A program made the position numbers and the translations under genes. A DNA stretch of 64,000 nt, taken from NCBI RefSeq assembly GCF_000018605.1, contig NC_010003.1, positions 1,960,501-2,024,500 on the forward strand, written 5' to 3'. The notes under the pieces are model-generated. The model did no database searches and was not told the DNA's origin. It worked only from the letters and a program-made list of their open reading frames with translations. Below, piece after piece: positions 4,078-36,987 of this stretch. This DNA comes from Petrotoga mobilis SJ95. Its GTDB lineage: Bacteria > Thermotogota > Thermotogae > Petrotogales > Petrotogaceae. Positions within the stretch are counted from its first letter, which is position 1, and each line of letters opens with the position of its first letter.

Positions 4078-4224
4078 TTGTGTATCTTCCGATTTTTATA
4101 TATCAAAAATGTTAATAAAAAGAAAAAGCTTTATGTCGATAAAACATGATAAAATTTATCAATTTTTCTAAAATACTTATAGATAAAAAATTTCGAGCAA
4201 ATATAACGAAATTTTTTTCAAATT

Positions 4225-4372
4225 TTGATAAATGGAGATTTCAGTGTATAATCGCAAATAAATGCTTCTAATCATAAATATTTACCGATAATTAGAAATA
4301 ATGAAACAATTTTCAATTTAAACTAACTTTTGAAAATAATATCTTAGCGATTTTACTTTATTGGGAGGGAAA
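4225..4372 (+). promoter_or_regulatory. glnA promoter and conserved nitrogen-gene leader
   Basis: The 300-base gap before glnA holds a promoter, TTGATA (4225-4230), 16 bases, TATAAT (4247-4252), and a leader that closely matches the one before gdhA. Shared blocks in order are ATTAGAAATAATGAAA (4291-4306), the inverted repeat TGAAA (4302-4306) CAAT TTTCA (4311-4315), a 15-base spacer, and TGAAAATAATATCTT (4331-4345). A local hairpin TTCTAAT (4266-4272) with ATTAGAA (4291-4297) is also possible. The promoter calls follow consensus. That the block is a nitrogen-responsive operator or RNA element is inference. Confidence 0.7.
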
Positions 4373-4377
4373 AATTT

Positions 4378-5703
4378 ATGACAAAAGAGGAACTATTGGA
4401 ACAGATAGAAAGTCAAGGTATAAAGTATATTAGACTGCAAATTACTGATATCAACGGAGCCTTGAAAAACGTAGAAATACCATCTACAGAGTTAGAATCT
4501 TCTTTGACTAACGGGACTATGTTTGATGGTTCATCGATTGAAGGGCTAGTGAGAATCAACGAATCCGATATGTTGCTTAAACCTGATATAGACACCTTTG
4601 CAGTTTTGCCGTGGACCGTTGAAAGAGAAAAAGTTGGTAGATTCATTTGTGACATTTATACTTCTGATGGGAAGCATTTCCAAGGTGACCCCAGATATGT
4701 GTTGAAGAAAGTCATGAATGATATGAAAGAGTATGGCTATACCCCATATGCCGGTCCAGAACCAGAATTTTTTATCCTTCCAAGGGATGAGGAAACAAGA
4801 CAACCGGTATTATCTCCTCTTGATAGGGGAGGCTATTTCGATTTGCTCCCAATAGATTTAGGGGAAAGGGTTAGAAAAAACATGGTAGAAACTCTACAAA
4901 GTATGGGTATTAGAGTGGAGGCTGCTCACCATGAAGTAGCAAATTCTCAACATGAAATTGATTTCAGGTACGACAACGCTCTTAGAACCGCCGACAATAT
5001 TCAAACTTTTAAATTGGTTGTAAGGACGATAGCTCTATTGAACGGGCTGTGGGCAACGTTTATGCCTAAGCCATTTTTTGGTATGAACGGCTCAGGGATG
5101 CACACCCATTTGAGTATCTTTAAAGACGGAAAGAATATCTTTTACGATCCAAACGGTACTTATCAATTAAGCAGTGAGCTTAGATGGTTTATTGGAGGTG
5201 TTTTTAAGCATATAGATGCGATAACCGTTTTGGCAAATCCTACGATAAACTCATATAAAAGGTTAGTTCCCGGATACGAAGCCCCTGTTAACATCGCATG
5301 GTCCGTATTGAATAGAAGTGCTTTAGTGAGGATACCGATGTCGAGAGGAGACGGAACTAGGTTGGAATTAAGATCTCCAGATCCAACAGCAAATCCTTAT
5401 TTACTTTTAGCTAGTGTATTTTCATCAGGTTTAGAAGGTATAAAAAACAAGATAGAGCCACCTCAACCCGTTGATGGAAATATTTACGAAATGGACCACA
5501 AAGAAAAGAGTGAAAAAAATATTAGATATTTACCTGGTTCACTCAATGAATCCTTGGAAGCTCTGAAAAAAGACGAATTTATAGCCGAAATCTTGGGAGA
5601 ACACATATTTAAAAAATTTATAGAATTAAAAGAAAAAGAGATTGAAGAGTTTAAGATAGCGGTAACTGATTGGGAGATTAATAAGTACATAAACCAATTT
5701 TGA
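4378..5703 (+). CDS. glnA: Glutamine synthetase type I
   Basis: ATP-dependent condensation of ammonia and glutamate, the first step of the GS-GOGAT cycle completed by gltB and gltD just downstream. The beta-grasp domain begins at FDGSSIEGL. Catalytic-domain motifs are GPEPEFF, the histidine-rich AAHHEVANSQHEIDF, NGSGMHTH, and NSYKRLVPGYEAP. At 441 residues it fits the shorter, dodecameric GSI-alpha class seen in Bacillus and Thermotoga, which is usually regulated by feedback and regulators, not adenylylation. ATG at 4378 follows GGGAGGG. It is transcribed from the conserved leader promoter upstream. Confidence 0.97.
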   Translation: MTKEELLEQIESQGIKYIRLQITDINGALKNVEIPSTELESSLTNGTMFDGSSIEGLVRINESDMLLKPDIDTFAVLPWTVEREKVGRFICDIYTSDGKHFQGDPRYVLKKVMNDMKEYGYTPYAGPEPEFFILPRDEETRQPVLSPLDRGGYFDLLPIDLGERVRKNMVETLQSMGIRVEAAHHEVANSQHEIDFRYDNALRTADNIQTFKLVVRTIALLNGLWATFMPKPFFGMNGSGMHTHLSIFKDGKNIFYDPNGTYQLSSELRWFIGGVFKHIDAITVLANPTINSYKRLVPGYEAPVNIAWSVLNRSALVRIPMSRGDGTRLELRSPDPTANPYLLLASVFSSGLEGIKNKIEPPQPVDGNIYEMDHKEKSEKNIRYLPGSLNESLEALKKDEFIAEILGEHIFKKFIELKEKEIEEFKIAVTDWEINKYINQF

Positions 5704-5820: not shown

Positions 5821-8800
5821 ATGAATAATGGGCTTTACGATCCAAAGTTTGAGCATGATGCTTGTGGAGTTGGATTAGTTGCAAGTACAAAAGGAATAAA
5901 GTCACATGAAATAGTTGACAAATCGTTGAGCGTTTTAAAAAATATGGCTCATCGTGGTGCGCGAGGCAGAGAAGAAAATGATGGGGACGGGGCAGGGGTA
6001 CTGCTTCAGCTTCCCCATGATTTTTTAATAAACGTATCAAAACACTTAGGATTCAAGCTTCCGAATCAAAATGAATATGCCGTGGGTATGGTTTTTTGTC
6101 CCCGAGATAAAACTCTTACAAATATCTTCAAACAACAATTTGAAAAAATAGTCACCGATCAAGGCCAAAAAGTAATAGGTTGGAGAGATGTACCTATCAA
6201 TAAAGCATTTGTTGGCCCAACTGCATTAAAAAGCATGCCATCTTTTCTACAAGTTTTTATCGCTAAGAATCCTTCCTTGAAATCTGAAATAGAATTTGAA
6301 AGAAAATTGTACCTAATTAGGAAAAAAAGTGAAAAAGAGATAAAAATACCGTACACAGATGAAAATAAAACCTTTTATATAGCAAGTCTATCCTCTAAAA
6401 CAATTGTTTACAAAGGGATGTTAACAGCGGAACAATTAAAACACTTTTTCCCAGACTTGACTGATCCTCTTTTCAAATCGGCGTTTTCTATTGTACACTC
6501 CAGATTCAGTACGAACACATTTCCCAGTTGGAAACGGGCTCACCCTTATAGGTACATGGTTCACAACGGTGAGATCAACACTATAATTGGTAATGTTAAC
6601 TGGATGAAGGCAAGGCAATCCAAGGTAAGCACAGATATCTTTGGAGAAAACATTGAGGACATCTTCCCAATAATCGATGAAGATGGCAGTGATTCAGCAA
6701 TGTTTGACAACAATTTAGAATTCCTTTATTTGTCTGGTAGATCGCTACCTCATTCGATAATGATGATGATACCCGAACCTTGGGAAAACAATCAAACGAT
6801 GGATGTAGAAAAGAAAGCGTTTTATGAATTTCACAGTTGCTTGATGGAACCTTGGGATGGCCCTGCGGCGATTATTTTTACCGATGGTACAAAAGTAGGT
6901 GCGACACTGGACAGAAATGGATTGAGACCATTAAGATACTACATAACGGATGATGAATTGATACTTGCTTCAGAGGCTGGGGTCCTTGAAATACCTCCTC
7001 AAAAGATTTCAACTAAGGGAAGGATCACGCCAGGGAATATGTTGTTGCTGGATATTGAAAAAGGTCGAATTCTAAATGACGAAGAGATAAAACGACCGAT
7101 AATTTCAGAAAAGCCATATTTCTCATGGGTAAAAGAGAACATTGTGAATATTGAGGATCTTCCTGAGCATCCAAAAAAGAGAAATATGGAAATTAATGAT
7201 GTATCTTTAACTACAAAACAAAAATGTTTCGGATACACATTTGAGGACATTGAAATGATCATAGAACCTATGGTTATGGATGCTTCCGACCCCGTTGGGG
7301 CCATGGGGGATGACACACCTTTGGCCGTCTTATCTGAACGTCCAAAGTTATTGTATGAATATTTCAAACAGCTTTTCGCTCAAGTAACCAATCCTCCAAT
7401 AGATGCTATAAGAGAAAAAATAGTCACCTCTACCCATCTTTACATAGGTTCTGAAGGTAATCTTATTGATCCATCATCCATCAGTTGTAGGCAAATAAAG
7501 ATCGAAAACCCTATTCTTACCAACGATGAAATAGAAAAAATAAAAAACATTGACTTAGAAGGTTTCAAAACCGTTATCTTACCCATCTTGTACAAGGTAA
7601 AAGATGGAGAAGAAGGGCTAAAAAAAGCAATTGCAAACCTCTTTCAAAAGGCTGATTCTGCCATAAACGATGGTGCAAATATATTAATATTGTCGGATAA
7701 AGGAATTAACCAAGATTATGCTCCAATTCCAGCTTTACTAGCGGTATCGGGTATTCATCACCATTTGGTTAGAAGAGAAAATAGGACGGAGATTGGAATA
7801 ATCTTGGAATCTGCAGAACCAAGAGAAGTACATCATTTTTGTACACTCATAAGTTATGGTGCTTCTGCTATCAATCCATATCTCACCTATGAAAGTATTG
7901 AAAGTTTAGTTAATAAAGGTTACATTAAAGGTTTGAAATATGAAGAAGCCGTTCAAAGGTATAAAGATGCTGCCTTGAAAGGTATTCAAAAAGTGTTATC
8001 AAAGCTTGGGATCTCGACCCTTCAAGGCTATCAAGGTGCTCAAACCTTCGAAATAGTAGGGATAAAAAAGTCTATCGTAGAGCAATTTTTTACTGGAACC
8101 ACTTCACAAATAGAAGGAATAGGCCTAAAAGAAATAGCTCAAGAAATTTCTAAACGCCATTCAAATGCATTTGATCAGGTTAATAAAGGATCGGTGCTTG
8201 ATTCAGAAGGTCTTATAAAATGGAGGGCAAAAGGTGAGTATCACTTGTATAACCCCGAATCCATCTATTATTTACAAAATGCTGTTAAAAACAACGATTA
8301 TGAACTTTTCAAAAAGTTTTCACAATCTATAGTCGACGAAGATGCAAAATTATACAGTTTGAGAAGTCTTTTTGAGTTCAATTTTGATAAAACGAAAGCA
8401 ATTCCCCTTGACGAAGTAGAACCTGTGGAATCGATTGTTAAAAGATTCAAAACAGGAGCTATGTCTTTTGGGTCAATAAGTCAAGAAGCACACGAGGCCA
8501 TAGCAATAGCGATGAATCGAATAGGTGCCAAGAGTAACACAGGTGAAGGAGGGGAGGATTCAAACCGTTTCGCAAAAGAACAAAATGGGGATTCAAAGAA
8601 TAGTTCAATAAAGCAAGTTGCTTCTGGAAGATTCGGAGTCACGATCAACTACTTAAACAACGCTCAAGAGATCCAAATAAAGATAGCACAAGGTGCAAAA
8701 CCTGGGGAAGGTGGGGAGCTACCTGGGAACAAGGTTTATCCGTGGGTGGCAAAGGTAAGGAACTCTATTCCAGGAGTTACTCTCATTTCACCTCCTCCAC

Positions 8801-10401
8801 ACCACGATATCTACTCGATAGAAGATTTAGCAGAATTGATATACGACCTAAAAAACGCTAATAGAAACGCTCGAATAAACGTAAAATTAGTTTCAAAATC
8901 TGGTGTAGGTACTATAGCAGCGGGCGTAGCAAAAGCTGGAGCGGATGTTATATTGATAAGCGGTTTTGATGGAGGTACAGGTGCTTCACCACGTACTAGT
9001 ATAAGGCACGCTGGTTTGCCATGGGAGTTAGGATTGGCGGAAACTCATCAAACCTTGGTGATGAACAAGTTGAGAGATAGGGTCACTTTGGAAACGGATG
9101 GTAAGTTACTAACAGGAAAAGACATAGTGATTGCCGCACTTTTAGGTGCAGAAGAGTTTGGATTTGCCACAATTGTGTTAGTTGCCTTAGGGTGTGTCAT
9201 GATGAGAGTTTGCAATTTGGATACATGTCCTGTGGGAATTGCAACACAAAACCCTGTACTGAGAAAAAATTTCAAAGGCGATCCTCAATACGTTATCAAT
9301 CTCATGTACTTTCTCGCCTCTGAAGTAAGGGAATATATGGCCAAGTTAGGGTTCAGAACGGTTAGTGAAATGGTTGGGCGTGTGGATATATTAAGACAAA
9401 AAGAAATAAAAAATCATTGGAAAGCACATAGTATCGATCTTTCAAAATTATTATACAAACCAGAAATAACAAATTACTCATTCAGCCAATATCCTAAACC
9501 AATAAACAATGGTTTATCAGATACCTTGGACATAACTAAATTACTTCCCATTTGCAAGAATGCACTAGAATACGGAGAAAAAATTGAGGCCACTTTAGAT
9601 ATAAAAAATGTGAATAGAACCGTTGGAACAATTTTGGGAAATGAAATAATTAAAAGATATGGTGAGGAAGGACTGCCTGAAGATACAATAAAAATACATT
9701 TCAAAGGATCAGCTGGTCAAAGTTTTGGAGCCTTCATACCCAAGGGGGAAACGTTGATATTAGAAGGCGATTCAAACGATTACATAGCTAAAGGTTTATC
9801 GGGCGGAAAAATTATTGTATATCCACCCAAGGATTCTCAATTCTATGCAGAAGAAAATGTAATTGTTGGTAACGTTGCCTTGTATGGAGCAACGAGCGGT
9901 GAAATATACATCAGTGGTTTAGCGGGCGAACGTTTCGCGGTCAGAAACAGTGGGGCTACGGCTGTTGCCGAAGGTGTTGGTGAACATGGATGTGAATATA
10001 TGACAGGTGGGAAGGTTGTTATACTTGGTAAAACGGGTAGAAACTTTGCTGCAGGTATGTCAGGTGGAATAGCCTACGTATATGACAAAGACAATAGCTT
10101 TGAATCCAAATGTAACAAAGATACCGTTTTGTTGGAAAAAGTTGAAGAAGAGAACGAAGAGAACGAAATAAAAGAACTGATAAAAAAGCATTACGAATAC
10201 ACGAGTAGTAATGTGGCTAAAAACATTTTGAACAATTGGGGAAAAGCTAAAGAAAGATTCGTTAAGGTTATACCCAAAGATTACAAGAGAATGATGAAAG
10301 CTGTAAAAAGGATGCATATCGAAGGGATTACTGGTGAAGAAGCACTTATGAAGGCTTTTGAAGATAATTACAAGCAACAATCTTTGGTTGAAATGCATTG
10401 A
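5821..10401 (+). CDS. gltB: Glutamate synthase (NADPH-type), large subunit
   Basis: Full-length GltB, 1526 residues against 1517 in E. coli. C15, after a 14-residue propeptide, is the N-terminal nucleophile of the class II glutamine amidotransferase domain (about 15-430). The central and FMN-binding synthase domains follow, with GAMSFGSISQEAH and KPGEGGELPG. The [3Fe-4S] cluster cysteines are in CVMMRVCNLDTCPVG. The C-terminal beta-helix (about 1260-1480) carries repeated GxxxG motifs. Ammonia from glutamine is channelled to 2-oxoglutarate, giving two glutamates. GltD follows after 30 bases. ATG at 5821 has a strong GGAGGGAGG site. Confidence 0.96.
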   Translation: MNNGLYDPKFEHDACGVGLVASTKGIKSHEIVDKSLSVLKNMAHRGARGREENDGDGAGVLLQLPHDFLINVSKHLGFKLPNQNEYAVGMVFCPRDKTLTNIFKQQFEKIVTDQGQKVIGWRDVPINKAFVGPTALKSMPSFLQVFIAKNPSLKSEIEFERKLYLIRKKSEKEIKIPYTDENKTFYIASLSSKTIVYKGMLTAEQLKHFFPDLTDPLFKSAFSIVHSRFSTNTFPSWKRAHPYRYMVHNGEINTIIGNVNWMKARQSKVSTDIFGENIEDIFPIIDEDGSDSAMFDNNLEFLYLSGRSLPHSIMMMIPEPWENNQTMDVEKKAFYEFHSCLMEPWDGPAAIIFTDGTKVGATLDRNGLRPLRYYITDDELILASEAGVLEIPPQKISTKGRITPGNMLLLDIEKGRILNDEEIKRPIISEKPYFSWVKENIVNIEDLPEHPKKRNMEINDVSLTTKQKCFGYTFEDIEMIIEPMVMDASDPVGAMGDDTPLAVLSERPKLLYEYFKQLFAQVTNPPIDAIREKIVTSTHLYIGSEGNLIDPSSISCRQIKIENPILTNDEIEKIKNIDLEGFKTVILPILYKVKDGEEGLKKAIANLFQKADSAINDGANILILSDKGINQDYAPIPALLAVSGIHHHLVRRENRTEIGIILESAEPREVHHFCTLISYGASAINPYLTYESIESLVNKGYIKGLKYEEAVQRYKDAALKGIQKVLSKLGISTLQGYQGAQTFEIVGIKKSIVEQFFTGTTSQIEGIGLKEIAQEISKRHSNAFDQVNKGSVLDSEGLIKWRAKGEYHLYNPESIYYLQNAVKNNDYELFKKFSQSIVDEDAKLYSLRSLFEFNFDKTKAIPLDEVEPVESIVKRFKTGAMSFGSISQEAHEAIAIAMNRIGAKSNTGEGGEDSNRFAKEQNGDSKNSSIKQVASGRFGVTINYLNNAQEIQIKIAQGAKPGEGGELPGNKVYPWVAKVRNSIPGVTLISPPPHHDIYSIEDLAELIYDLKNANRNARINVKLVSKSGVGTIAAGVAKAGADVILISGFDGGTGASPRTSIRHAGLPWELGLAETHQTLVMNKLRDRVTLETDGKLLTGKDIVIAALLGAEEFGFATIVLVALGCVMMRVCNLDTCPVGIATQNPVLRKNFKGDPQYVINLMYFLASEVREYMAKLGFRTVSEMVGRVDILRQKEIKNHWKAHSIDLSKLLYKPEITNYSFSQYPKPINNGLSDTLDITKLLPICKNALEYGEKIEATLDIKNVNRTVGTILGNEIIKRYGEEGLPEDTIKIHFKGSAGQSFGAFIPKGETLILEGDSNDYIAKGLSGGKIIVYPPKDSQFYAEENVIVGNVALYGATSGEIYISGLAGERFAVRNSGATAVAEGVGEHGCEYMTGGKVVILGKTGRNFAAGMSGGIAYVYDKDNSFESKCNKDTVLLEKVEEENEENEIKELIKKHYEYTSSNVAKNILNNWGKAKERFVKVIPKDYKRMMKAVKRMHIEGITGEEALMKAFEDNYKQQSLVEMH

Positions 10402-10431: not shown

Positions 10432-11952
10432 ATGGGCGATCCCCAAGGATTTCTAAAGTATGAAAGAAAAACCCCTGAAGAAAGACCCTCAAAAATAAGA
10501 ATAAATGATTGGGAAGAATTATATATAGAAATGGAAAAAGATGAACTTCGAATGCAAGCAGCAAGATGCATGAACTGCGGCACACCGTTTTGTCATTCTG
10601 GCATATTGATAAATAATATGGTCTCGGGGTGCCCTTTGAATAATTTGATTCCAGAATGGAACGATTTAGTATATAGAAACCTTTGGAAAGAAGCTTACGA
10701 AAGGTTGATCGAAACAAACAGTTTCCCAGAATTCACGGGAAGGGTTTGTCCTGCTCCATGCGAAAAAGCTTGTGTAAACAATTTGGTAAAGGATCCGGTT
10801 TCCATTAAAAGTATTGAATATTATATTATAGAAGAAGCATTCAAAAATGGTTGGGTAGAAGAGGATAAGCCATCTTACTCCACTGGTAAAAAGGTGGCTG
10901 TTGTAGGTTCTGGACCGGCAGGGTTATCATGTGCTTGGGAGTTAAAAAGATATGGTCATGAAGTTACAGTTTTTGAAAAGTATGAATATCCGGGGGGCTT
11001 ATTGACTTACGGTATACCAAATATGAAATTGGACAAAAAGATTGTAAAAAGACGTATAGAATTGATGAAAAAATCTGGCATACAATTCAAAACTAATATA
11101 GACGTTGGTAAAGATTATCCTGCTCAAAAGCTAAAAGAAGAGTTTGATAGCGTTGTATTATGTGGAGGAACCGCTAAAGCGAGAGATTTAAACGTAGAGG
11201 GAAGAAACCTAAAAGGGATATACTTTGCCACAGAATTTTTGAAGAGTGCAAACGAGAGAATACTGTCTCAATTTATAAAAAGTGAAAAAGATATTGAGGA
11301 GATCTCTGCTAAGGGTAAGAACGTTATCGTAATCGGTGGAGGAGATACGGGAACGGATTGTGTGGGAGTTAGTTTAAGACAGGGTTGTAAAAGTGTTGTA
11401 CAGTTTGAAATTATGGACAAACCTCCACTTTTAAGGAGACAAAACAATCCTTGGCCAGAATGGCCCAAAGTTTTAACTGTTGATTATGCTCAGGAAGAAT
11501 ATGCAGAACTATTCGGTAAAGATCCGAGATTGTACAACATTTCAACTAAAAGATTTGTTGGAGATGCAAAAGGTAACGTTAAAGAGGTCCATACCGTTGA
11601 AGTAGAATGGAAACAGGATAAAACAGGAAAATTGTTTCCAAAAGAAATCGATGGAACAGAAAAGGTATGGAAAGCAGATTTAGTTCTGTTAGCCTTGGGA
11701 TTCTTAGGCCCCGAAAAGTATTTAATTGAGCAGTTAAATGTAGAAACAGATAAAAGATCAAACGTTAAAACGGAAGAAGGAAAATACTCGACAAATGTGG
11801 AAGGGATTTTTTCAGCTGGAGATATGAGAAGGGGACAAAGTTTGGTAGTATGGGCAATAAATGAAGGGAAACAAGCAGCAAAAGAATGTAATGAATACTT
11901 AATTTCTTCCAATAATAACAATAATAAACAGCGTCGGCTCAAAACGCTGTAG
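10432..11952 (+). CDS. gltD: Glutamate synthase small subunit (beta)
   Basis: FAD- and NAD(P)H-binding electron-input subunit that passes electrons to GltB. N-terminal [4Fe-4S] cysteine clusters are CMNCGTPFCHSG, a later CPLNN, and CPAPCEKACVNN. Two Rossmann motifs follow, VVGSGPAGLS for FAD and VIGGGDTGTDCVG for NAD(P)H. The 506-residue length is slightly above the usual 470-490. The extra tail, rich in Asn then ending KQRRLKTL, is encoded by the left half of the RNA hairpin system that follows, so the C-terminus seems shaped by the RNA structure. Start ATG at 10432 after AAAGGAGG. Confidence 0.95.
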   Translation: MGDPQGFLKYERKTPEERPSKIRINDWEELYIEMEKDELRMQAARCMNCGTPFCHSGILINNMVSGCPLNNLIPEWNDLVYRNLWKEAYERLIETNSFPEFTGRVCPAPCEKACVNNLVKDPVSIKSIEYYIIEEAFKNGWVEEDKPSYSTGKKVAVVGSGPAGLSCAWELKRYGHEVTVFEKYEYPGGLLTYGIPNMKLDKKIVKRRIELMKKSGIQFKTNIDVGKDYPAQKLKEEFDSVVLCGGTAKARDLNVEGRNLKGIYFATEFLKSANERILSQFIKSEKDIEEISAKGKNVIVIGGGDTGTDCVGVSLRQGCKSVVQFEIMDKPPLLRRQNNPWPEWPKVLTVDYAQEEYAELFGKDPRLYNISTKRFVGDAKGNVKEVHTVEVEWKQDKTGKLFPKEIDGTEKVWKADLVLLALGFLGPEKYLIEQLNVETDKRSNVKTEEGKYSTNVEGIFSAGDMRRGQSLVVWAINEGKQAAKECNEYLISSNNNNNKQRRLKTL

Positions 11953-12002
11953 TATTGTTGTTATAAAGCCGACGCAGAAAAATTAATGCGTCGGTTTTTT
12001 AT
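11917..12002 (+). terminator. Three-way hairpin with terminator between gltD and amt (attenuator-like)
   Basis: GCGTCGGC (11931-11938) can pair with GCCGACGC (11968-11975). Alternatively CCGACGC (11969-11975) pairs with GCGTCGG (11988-11994) and runs into six T residues, a classic terminator. A competing upstream hairpin, ACAGCGT (11928-11934) with ACGCTGT (11944-11950), extended by AACAAT/ATTGTT arms, would free the middle segment to form the terminator. The first arm overlaps the last codons and stop of gltD. Pairings are read directly; regulation of amt-glnK read-through is inference. Confidence 0.7.
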
Positions 12003-12086
12003 TTTGTAATGGGAGGTGAAAAAAGTCTACGTTAAGTACCATATTCTGGGGTTTGGAAAAAACAAAAAAAGGAGTGTGAGGGTATT

Positions 12087-13412
12087 ATGAAGAGAGTTTG
12101 GAAGAGTTTGTTGATGATGTCTGTTGCCTTTATTGTTCCAACCGTTTTACTCGCAGATAGTATTACTATGGAGGACGTGGTAAGCTCCATCGATACTATG
12201 TGGACTTTACTCGCAGCGTTTTTAGTGTTTTTTATGCAAGCTGGATTTGCGCTCGTGGAAGCAGGGTTTACAAGATCAAAGAACACGGTAAACATCATCA
12301 TGAAAAACTTTACGGATTTTTTAGTTGGCTCAATACTTTACTGGCTAGTTGGGTTTACTATTATGTTTGGTGTTGGGAATGGTTTCATAGGTTGGCAAGG
12401 AAGTTTTGAATATCTGGGATTAAACATTCCGCTTAACGCTTTTTTAATATTCCAGACGGTATTTGCTGCAACCGCTGCAACTATAGTATCTGGAGCAATG
12501 GCGGAAAGAACTAAATTCACAGGTTATCTGATCTACAGTGTTTTCATCAGTGCATTTATATATCCCATAGTTGGTCATTGGATATGGGGTGGAGGTTGGT
12601 TATCAGATATGGTTGATTTTGCAGGTTCCACAGTAGTTCATTCCGTAGGCGGATGGGCTGCACTGATGGGAACAATGGTTTTAGGGCCAAGAACCGGTAA
12701 ATACAGATCAGATGGAACACCGAATAAGATTCCAGGACATAGCTTAGTTTTAGCTGCTTTAGGGGTTTTCATCCTATGGTTTGGATGGTTTGGTTTTAAC
12801 CCTGGAAGTACCATTTCAGGTTTAAATCTCAAAATCGCTGATATAGCGATGACTACAAATTTAGCTGCCGCATCAGGAGGGTTGGGGGCGTTGACGATAG
12901 GTTGGTTTATTTACAAAAAACCGGACGTCAACTCTACCCTAAATGGTGTTTTAGCTGGATTGGTGGGAATCACTGCTGGCACAGCAAGTGTTACTAATGT
13001 TGGCGCTGCCATAATAGGAGCTTTATCCGGTGGTTTAGTTGTTCTAGCTATAGATTTTTTCGACAAAATACATATCGATGATCCTGTTGGAGCAATCTCT
13101 GTGCATGGAGTTGGTGGAGCGTTCGGTACATTAATGGTTGGAATATTTGCTGTGGATGGTGGATTACTCTACGGAGGAGGATTAAATCTGTTTTTGACTC
13201 AGCTAAAAGGGGTGCTAGCTGTTGCAGGTTGGACCGTTGTAACTACCTACATCCTTTTTAAAAGTATCGATTTAACAATAGGTTTAAGGATTGATTCTAC
13301 TAGTGAAATAGAGGGCTTAGATTTTGCAGAGCATGGATCTGTTAGTTATCCTGATTTAACTCCGCTTAAAGGGCGAAGCGTGAGAGTAAAAATTGATGAG
13401 GAAGGTGAATAA
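12087..13412 (+). CDS. amt: Ammonium transporter, Amt/Rh family
   Basis: Inner-membrane ammonium channel, 441 residues with about 11 transmembrane helices and a cleavable-looking N-terminal signal (hydrophobic stretch about 6-22 ending at LLAD). Family motifs are AGFALVEAGFTRSKN and the two histidine helices, VVHSVGGWAALMG and SVHGVGGAFGTLM, carrying the pore twin histidines. The cytosolic tail (LRIDSTSEIEGLDFAEH) is the usual GlnK contact. ATG at 12087 follows AAAGGAGTG. The PII gene follows immediately, the standard amtB-glnK arrangement in which GlnK plugs the channel at high nitrogen. Confidence 0.96.
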   Translation: MKRVWKSLLMMSVAFIVPTVLLADSITMEDVVSSIDTMWTLLAAFLVFFMQAGFALVEAGFTRSKNTVNIIMKNFTDFLVGSILYWLVGFTIMFGVGNGFIGWQGSFEYLGLNIPLNAFLIFQTVFAATAATIVSGAMAERTKFTGYLIYSVFISAFIYPIVGHWIWGGGWLSDMVDFAGSTVVHSVGGWAALMGTMVLGPRTGKYRSDGTPNKIPGHSLVLAALGVFILWFGWFGFNPGSTISGLNLKIADIAMTTNLAAASGGLGALTIGWFIYKKPDVNSTLNGVLAGLVGITAGTASVTNVGAAIIGALSGGLVVLAIDFFDKIHIDDPVGAISVHGVGGAFGTLMVGIFAVDGGLLYGGGLNLFLTQLKGVLAVAGWTVVTTYILFKSIDLTIGLRIDSTSEIEGLDFAEHGSVSYPDLTPLKGRSVRVKIDEEGE

Positions 13413-13413
13413 T

Positions 13414-13749
13414 ATGGGATACAAGAAAATTGAATGTTTTATCAGGCCAGAAAAATTTGAGGAAGTCATCGTAGGATTAGAAAAAGTTGGTATCGATGGC
13501 ATTAACATTGATAAGATCTATGGATATGGTAGTCAAAAAGGGGAAGAAAAAGAGGTGGAAGATTACAAACAGAAAAAAGAATATGAAGTAAAATTCAAGG
13601 AAAAGATCAAATTAGAAATAGTAACTGACGAAAACAAAGTTGAAAAAATTATAGAAACTATAAAAGCACACGCGCAAACAGGTAAGGTAGGTGATGGAAA
13701 GATTTATATTACACCGGTAGAAGAAAGTATAAAAATACGAACCACTTAA
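13414..13749 (+). CDS. glnK: Nitrogen regulatory protein PII (GlnK)
   Basis: Trimeric PII signal protein of 112 residues that senses ATP/ADP and 2-oxoglutarate and blocks Amt. The start is ATG at 13414, not upstream TTG or ATG codons inside the amt 3' end; GAGGAAGG precedes it. The B-loop is TGKVGDGKIYI. The T-loop (about 37-60) is YGYGSQKG followed by a charged, lysine- and glutamate-rich stretch about four residues longer than in E. coli GlnB and without its ELYRGAEY motif, so uridylylation at Tyr51 is not supported. Confidence 0.93.
   Translation: MGYKKIECFIRPEKFEEVIVGLEKVGIDGINIDKIYGYGSQKGEEKEVEDYKQKKEYEVKFKEKIKLEIVTDENKVEKIIETIKAHAQTGKVGDGKIYITPVEESIKIRTT

Positions 13750-35449: not shown

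Positions 35450-36985
<1,536 letters not shown>

Positions 36986-36987
<2 letters not shown>

Follow-up and report, generated by a model that had tools for sequence, protein, structure and literature searches.

The leader block shared by glnA and gdhA of Petrotoga mobilis SJ95 is best read as a lineage-restricted operator with a small regulon, which is wider than the sequence-only reading of this DNA had held. Our preferred reading, to which we give a probability of about 0.7, is that the block is a tandem operator of one putative DNA-binding regulator, located just downstream of sigma-70-type promoters. The third target is an operon for the synthesis of phenylalanine and branched-chain amino acids (BCAA), so that the theme of the regulon would be amino-acid biosynthesis including ammonium assimilation. 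The earlier proposal of a nitrogen-responsive operator is thus well supported as far as a common operator downstream of the promoter is concerned, and too narrow in its restriction to nitrogen. Judged from sequence, the same conserved palindromic site precedes functionally linked operons, as is characteristic of a transcription-factor regulon. In the literature we searched, there was no description of how Petrotoga, an oil-field bacterium, tunes nitrogen assimilation and no paper on its nitrogen or amino-acid regulons; the RegPrecise Thermotogales collection may contain an earlier description.

The window, by which we mean the whole 64-kb stretch analysed here (C1:1960501-2024500), is part of the single-contig genome of this organism (G000, 2,169,548 bp). 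It carries the following genes downstream of the block:

4378-5703, plus strand: glnA, type I glutamine synthetase, start codon ATG at 4378 (NCBIfam TIGR00653, above cut-off)
5821-10401, plus strand: gltB, glutamate synthase large subunit (NF008730, above cut-off)
10432-11952, plus strand: gltD, glutamate synthase small subunit (TIGR01317, above cut-off)
12087-13412, plus strand: amtB ammonium transporter, sole copy in the genome (PF00909, E 5.9e-120)
13393-13749, plus strand: PII signal protein (glnK/glnB), overlapping the end of amtB, sole copy in the genome (PF00543, E 3.4e-22)
35623-36987, plus strand: gdhA, NADP-type glutamate dehydrogenase, start codon GTG at 35623 (NF006929, above cut-off)

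The NCBIfam and Pfam matches confirm the identities previously assigned to glnA and gdhA. The genes glnA, gltB, gltD, amtB and the PII gene are all co-directional, and amtB is probably in one transcription unit with glnA. Together, glnA, gltBD, amtB-glnK and gdhA are classical nitrogen-control targets. The promoters and the elements of the block are located as follows:

4207-4220, no strand: candidate upstream palindrome CGAAATTTTTTTCA directly before the glnA -35 (position kept in Petrotoga promoters)
4225-4252, plus strand: glnA promoter, TTGATA (4225-4230), 16 bp, TATAAT (4247-4252) (from sequence; 11 of 12 consensus matches; kept in five relatives)
4270-4345, plus strand: glnA copy of the block (model R2 match G000:C1:1964770-1964846, E 3.9e-14, as a member of the training set; local alignment with the gdhA block)
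4302-4315, no strand: glnA O1, TGAAACAATTTTCA, operator-like palindrome TGAAA-CAAT-TTTCA (half-site conservation and geometry)
4331-4345: glnA second block, TGAAAATAATATCTT, containing at 4331-4344 O2, the weaker palindrome TGAAA-ATAA-TATCT, 29 bp from O1
35450-35477, plus strand: gdhA promoter, TTGCAT (35450-35455), 16 bp, TATAAT (35472-35477) (from sequence; kept in five relatives)
35493-35567, plus strand: gdhA copy of the block (model R2 match G000:C1:1995993-1996067, E 5.2e-13, as a member of the training set)
35524-35537, no strand: gdhA O1, TGAAATATATTTCA, operator-like TGAAA-TATA-TTTCA, a perfect 14-bp dyad
35553-35567: gdhA second block, TGAAAATAATTTCTT, containing at 35553-35566 O2, TGAAA-ATAA-TTTCT, 29 bp from O1

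The two leaders have about 120 bp in common, as had been noticed before, with a local alignment score of 57; the highest score among 3000 dinucleotide shuffles was 41 (mean 21, sd 3.4). The window contains two matches to the core pattern TTAG..A..ATGAAA....TTTC, and 20 shuffles contained none. The -35/-10 pairs with their 16-base spacing can be read directly in the sequence, and the TGAAA-N4-TTTCA repeat, the 15-base spacer that follows it and the second block are present in both leaders where they had been described. Only the position of the ATTAG motif needs correction: it is present, at 38 (glnA) and 35 (gdhA) bases after the -10 instead of the 36-39 given earlier. Beyond these features, the earlier description lacked the third genomic copy of the block, before pheA-ilvD, the similar palindrome in front of the -35 of glnA and pheA, and the nature of the second block. 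The motif of the latter, TGAAAATAAT(A/T)TCT, is a degraded copy of TGAAA-N4-TTTCA, and the block is therefore a pair of palindromes whose centres are 29 bp apart. Since exact TGAAA-N4-TTTCA is found at more than 30 further positions of the genome, the palindrome by itself is unspecific.

A comparison of 21 copies defines the anatomy of the block. All have a sigma-70-type -35 and -10, with a spacer of 16 bp at glnA and gdhA and of 17 bp at pheA. The block extends over about 75 bp and its core consists of two 14-bp GAAA-N4-TTTC palindromes, 28-29 bp apart where O2 is recognisable; O2 is weak at several promoters and unrecognisable at glnA of G001, a genome of the second genus. Counted from the first base of TATAAT, O1 begins 51-55 bp downstream, which places it at about +43 and O2 at about +72 from the inferred transcription start. 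Among the 14 distinct O1 sequences, there is hardly any variation in the half-sites TGAAA and TTTC(A/T), and the central N4 varies, a pattern expected for the site of a dimer. Left of O1, TTACCnATAATTAG is conserved as well, outside what the two palindromes explain. A further palindrome, CGAAATTTTTTTCA at glnA or TGAAATTTTTTTCA at pheA, lies just before the -35, with its position kept in 5 glnA and 6 pheA promoters of Petrotoga; gdhA and the other genera lack it. It could be a third operator or, equally, an A+T-rich UP element.

To search relatives, we used two models. R1 was based on sequence alone, with nine glnA/gdhA copies as its training set, and was run over the family; R2 was built from 17 sequences and run over 103 genomes of the class. 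R1 found, outside its training sample, the promoter of the pheA-ilvD-ilvB-ilvN-ilvC-leuA... operon in all six Petrotoga genomes, with E values of 2e-8, 1e-7, 5e-7 and 1e-6 in four of them, 4e-5 in the fifth and 1.4e-3 in the window's own genome. It also matched ilv-type promoters in the neighbouring genera, at 4e-7 (g2) and 1e-6 (g3); the match in G001 is before a pheA-gdhA-ilvD-ilvB operon and the one in G003, of the third genus, before ilvD-ilvB-ilvN-ilvC. The copy in G002 was found with R2. Across the class, R2 yielded 21 matches at E ≤1.6e-9, all at glnA, gdhA or pheA-ilv promoters of genera g1-g3, and nothing between 1.6e-9 and 4e-4, an interval of over five orders of magnitude. It identified exactly three strong copies in the genome of the window. 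The genomes that bear the site are G000-G003 and G013-G017. A scan for the exact pattern over about 85,000 species, from which relatives of the window's genome were possibly left out, gave six matches, all outside Thermotogota, which we take as chance.

Among the 21 family genomes, G001 and all Petrotoga species but one (five of six) have the block before glnA, and all six Petrotoga species have it before gdhA. The expectation that it would be present in relatives thus holds for Petrotoga and two neighbouring genera; it fails for the other genera of the family and for glnA of one Petrotoga species. In the latter (G017), glnA lies directly behind another gene and has lost the block, and gdhA and pheA retain theirs. 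The gdhA gene of G001 has no block of its own and sits within the block-bearing pheA-gdhA-ilvD-ilvB operon; it seems to have come under the same control by a second route. This placement points to selection for common control, and so speaks against the very doubtful explanation that the promoters are merely old duplicates, still alike by chance, without a common regulator. The glnA and pheA promoters of Petrotoga are indeed alike from the -35 region through the block, as they would be after copying; yet conservation is uneven, with half-sites nearly fixed against a variable N4 and 15-bp spacer, and identical columns are kept over three genera and three operons.

Could the block act as RNA, either as a riboswitch or as the site of an RNA-binding protein in the 5' leader, as had also been proposed? 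It lies wholly inside the predicted transcript, at a near-constant distance from the promoter, and conserved words such as TTACCnATAATTAG are one-stranded and not palindromic. Against this, the leaders fold no better than shuffles (z -0.9 and -0.5), RNAalifold returned -1.17 kcal/mol with only a trivial hairpin of five pairs and no compensatory change, Rfam matches were all sub-threshold and no terminator was found. Further, the glnA and pheA promoters of Petrotoga have the palindrome again ahead of the -35, in a position outside the transcript. We therefore consider an RNA element unlikely and do not retain this part of the earlier proposal. The ribosome-binding site of glnA is separated from the block by inserted repeats of about 180-440 bp in G013, G014, G015 and G016. 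The block thus keeps its distance to the promoter and not to the gene, which indicates that it belongs to transcription and not to the translation start.

An alternative within the leader is a short upstream open reading frame, starting from an ATG inside O1 (MKQFSI, MKYISLNYLL, MKFFS...), that would control the operons through ribosome stalling. An ATG-AAA start is present in 20 of the 21 copies, and the leaders are rich in Phe at pheA and in Ile and Leu in G001 and G002. The residues that the peptides have in common follow, however, from the palindrome alone. At about 6-22 residues, they have no common regulatory codon, and the one at gdhA of G017 consists of MK and a stop. Since there is also no Shine-Dalgarno sequence at glnA or gdhA and no terminator for attenuation, control by such a peptide seems very improbable, and a DNA operator explains the data best.

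Joint control of amino-acid and nitrogen metabolism is exerted by CodY in Firmicutes and by Lrp in enterobacteria, and candidates for a protein binding the block are known regulators, ArgR on ARG boxes, Lrp/AsnC, CodY or CRP/FNR. The amino-acid targets suit ArgR, Lrp and CodY, and TGAAA-N4-TTTCA resembles an ARG box and has the 14-bp geometry of FNR sites. The ARG box is TGAAT-N4-ATTCA and shares with O1/O2 a 14-bp core, 5-bp half-sites, a central N4 and the occurrence in pairs, but the innermost half-site letter differs and the targets of the block are not arginine genes. Tempting as it is by sequence, we dropped this candidate because the ArgR profile (PF01316) finds nothing in any of the 21 family genomes and is positive in 9 of 14 controls, including Thermotoga maritima.

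The 13-bp site of the archaeal feast-famine regulator FL11 reportedly resembles TGAAA-N3-TTTCA. The Lrp/AsnC group is like the block regulon in combining an amino-acid regulon with repeated palindromes, but the spacing in the block is N4 rather than N3. Feast-famine regulators of this group, including FL11, bind repeated palindromic sites as several dimers (PMC2995911). As the AsnC-type ligand domain (AsnC_trans_reg, PF01037) was found in 0 of 21 family genomes, with 11 of 14 controls positive, Lrp/AsnC is ruled out.

The CodY regulon of Firmicutes, which includes ilv-leu and glutamate/nitrogen genes, likewise places BCAA synthesis and glutamate metabolism under joint control from palindromic sites. 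Some CodY sites lie downstream of the promoter and act by roadblock in B. subtilis (PMC5314169, referring to Belitsky and Sonenshein 2011). The Petrotoga site, however, is GAAA-N4-TTTC and not the CodY box AATTTTCWGAAAATT, whose only match, with three mismatches, is at 4210-4224, upstream of the block; such matches are no commoner than in shuffles. CodY (PF06018) was found in none of the 21 Petrotogaceae genomes, with B. subtilis and L. lactis as positive controls; without a gene and without a box in the block, CodY is ruled out too.

Petrotoga and G001 have CRP/FNR proteins, and the geometry of the sites fits. G002 and G003, however, carry the site and have no genuine member, only weak hits that are GntR-like where read, and we therefore dropped CRP/FNR as the common regulator. 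GlnR/TnrA control has the same glnA, gltBD, amtB-glnK and gdhA targets; unlike it, the block regulon includes Phe/BCAA synthesis, and TGTNA-N7-TNACA had no match with up to one mismatch in the glnA or gdhA leader. A MarR protein in the site-bearing genomes read is encoded together with an ABC exporter in one operon, and is more likely a local regulator. In sum, recognition by ArgR, Lrp/AsnC, CodY or CRP/FNR is extremely unlikely; for the first three it is refuted, short of a strongly diverged member that the profiles failed to detect. The block regulon works like a CodY or Lrp regulon and is a member of neither.

As to mechanism, a putative dimeric transcription factor would bind the palindromes of the tandem operator, two dimers side by side, perhaps assisted at glnA and pheA by the third site in front of the -35. 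The sites of the block are situated some 43-85 bp into the transcript and show no phase-locking to the promoter, for which reason the predicted protein probably represses by a roadblock downstream of the promoter; its sign, repressor or activator, is our guess. The lack of phase-locking of O1 fits a roadblock, short of proving it. Repression might prevail when amino acids are plentiful and be released when amino acids or nitrogen are short, the signal again being a guess. Ammonium assimilation (GS-GOGAT-AmtB-PII and GDH) and BCAA/Phe synthesis would then rise and fall together.

In the stretches read, the neighbours of the three operons include no transcription-factor gene. It is conceivable, and we propose it tentatively, that Petrotogaceae, without ArgR, Lrp and CodY, use a dedicated regulator new to amino-acid metabolism and, through its regulon of three operons, couple ammonium assimilation to BCAA synthesis. 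The block provides a short, well-defined bait DNA; with it, with the three operons predicted to share control and with the regulators already excluded, the missing protein can be sought directly. If confirmed, it would be another independent solution to the task of CodY and Lrp, that of matching nitrogen uptake to amino-acid demand.

Elsewhere in the genome, two adjacent palindromes TGAAATATATTTCATGAAATTTTTTTCA (G000:C1:1583562-1583589; L102 around 2063) lie in the gap that separates glyA from an aminotransferase-butyrate kinase operon. Behind them comes AATAAATGCTTCTAATC, a 17-mer that also occurs in the glnA leader. R2 made no call at this pair, which is possibly a fourth target, upstream of a promoter. 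Near the ilv-leu operon there is a second glutamate dehydrogenase-like gene (L098:7948-9315), without the block.

Within the window, a 173-residue protein (1239-1760) directly 5' of a metH-like gene had no NCBIfam or Pfam match and is perhaps a stand-alone methionine synthase reactivation part. The gap between gltD and amtB (11915-12006) contains a strong hairpin over the gltD stop codon, followed by a terminator-like hairpin with a T run. Here GCGTCGGCT, AGCCGACGC and GCGTCGG can pair in two mutually exclusive ways, resembling an attenuator before amtB-PII; the fold has a z-score of -6.45 and the sequence is near-identical in four relatives.
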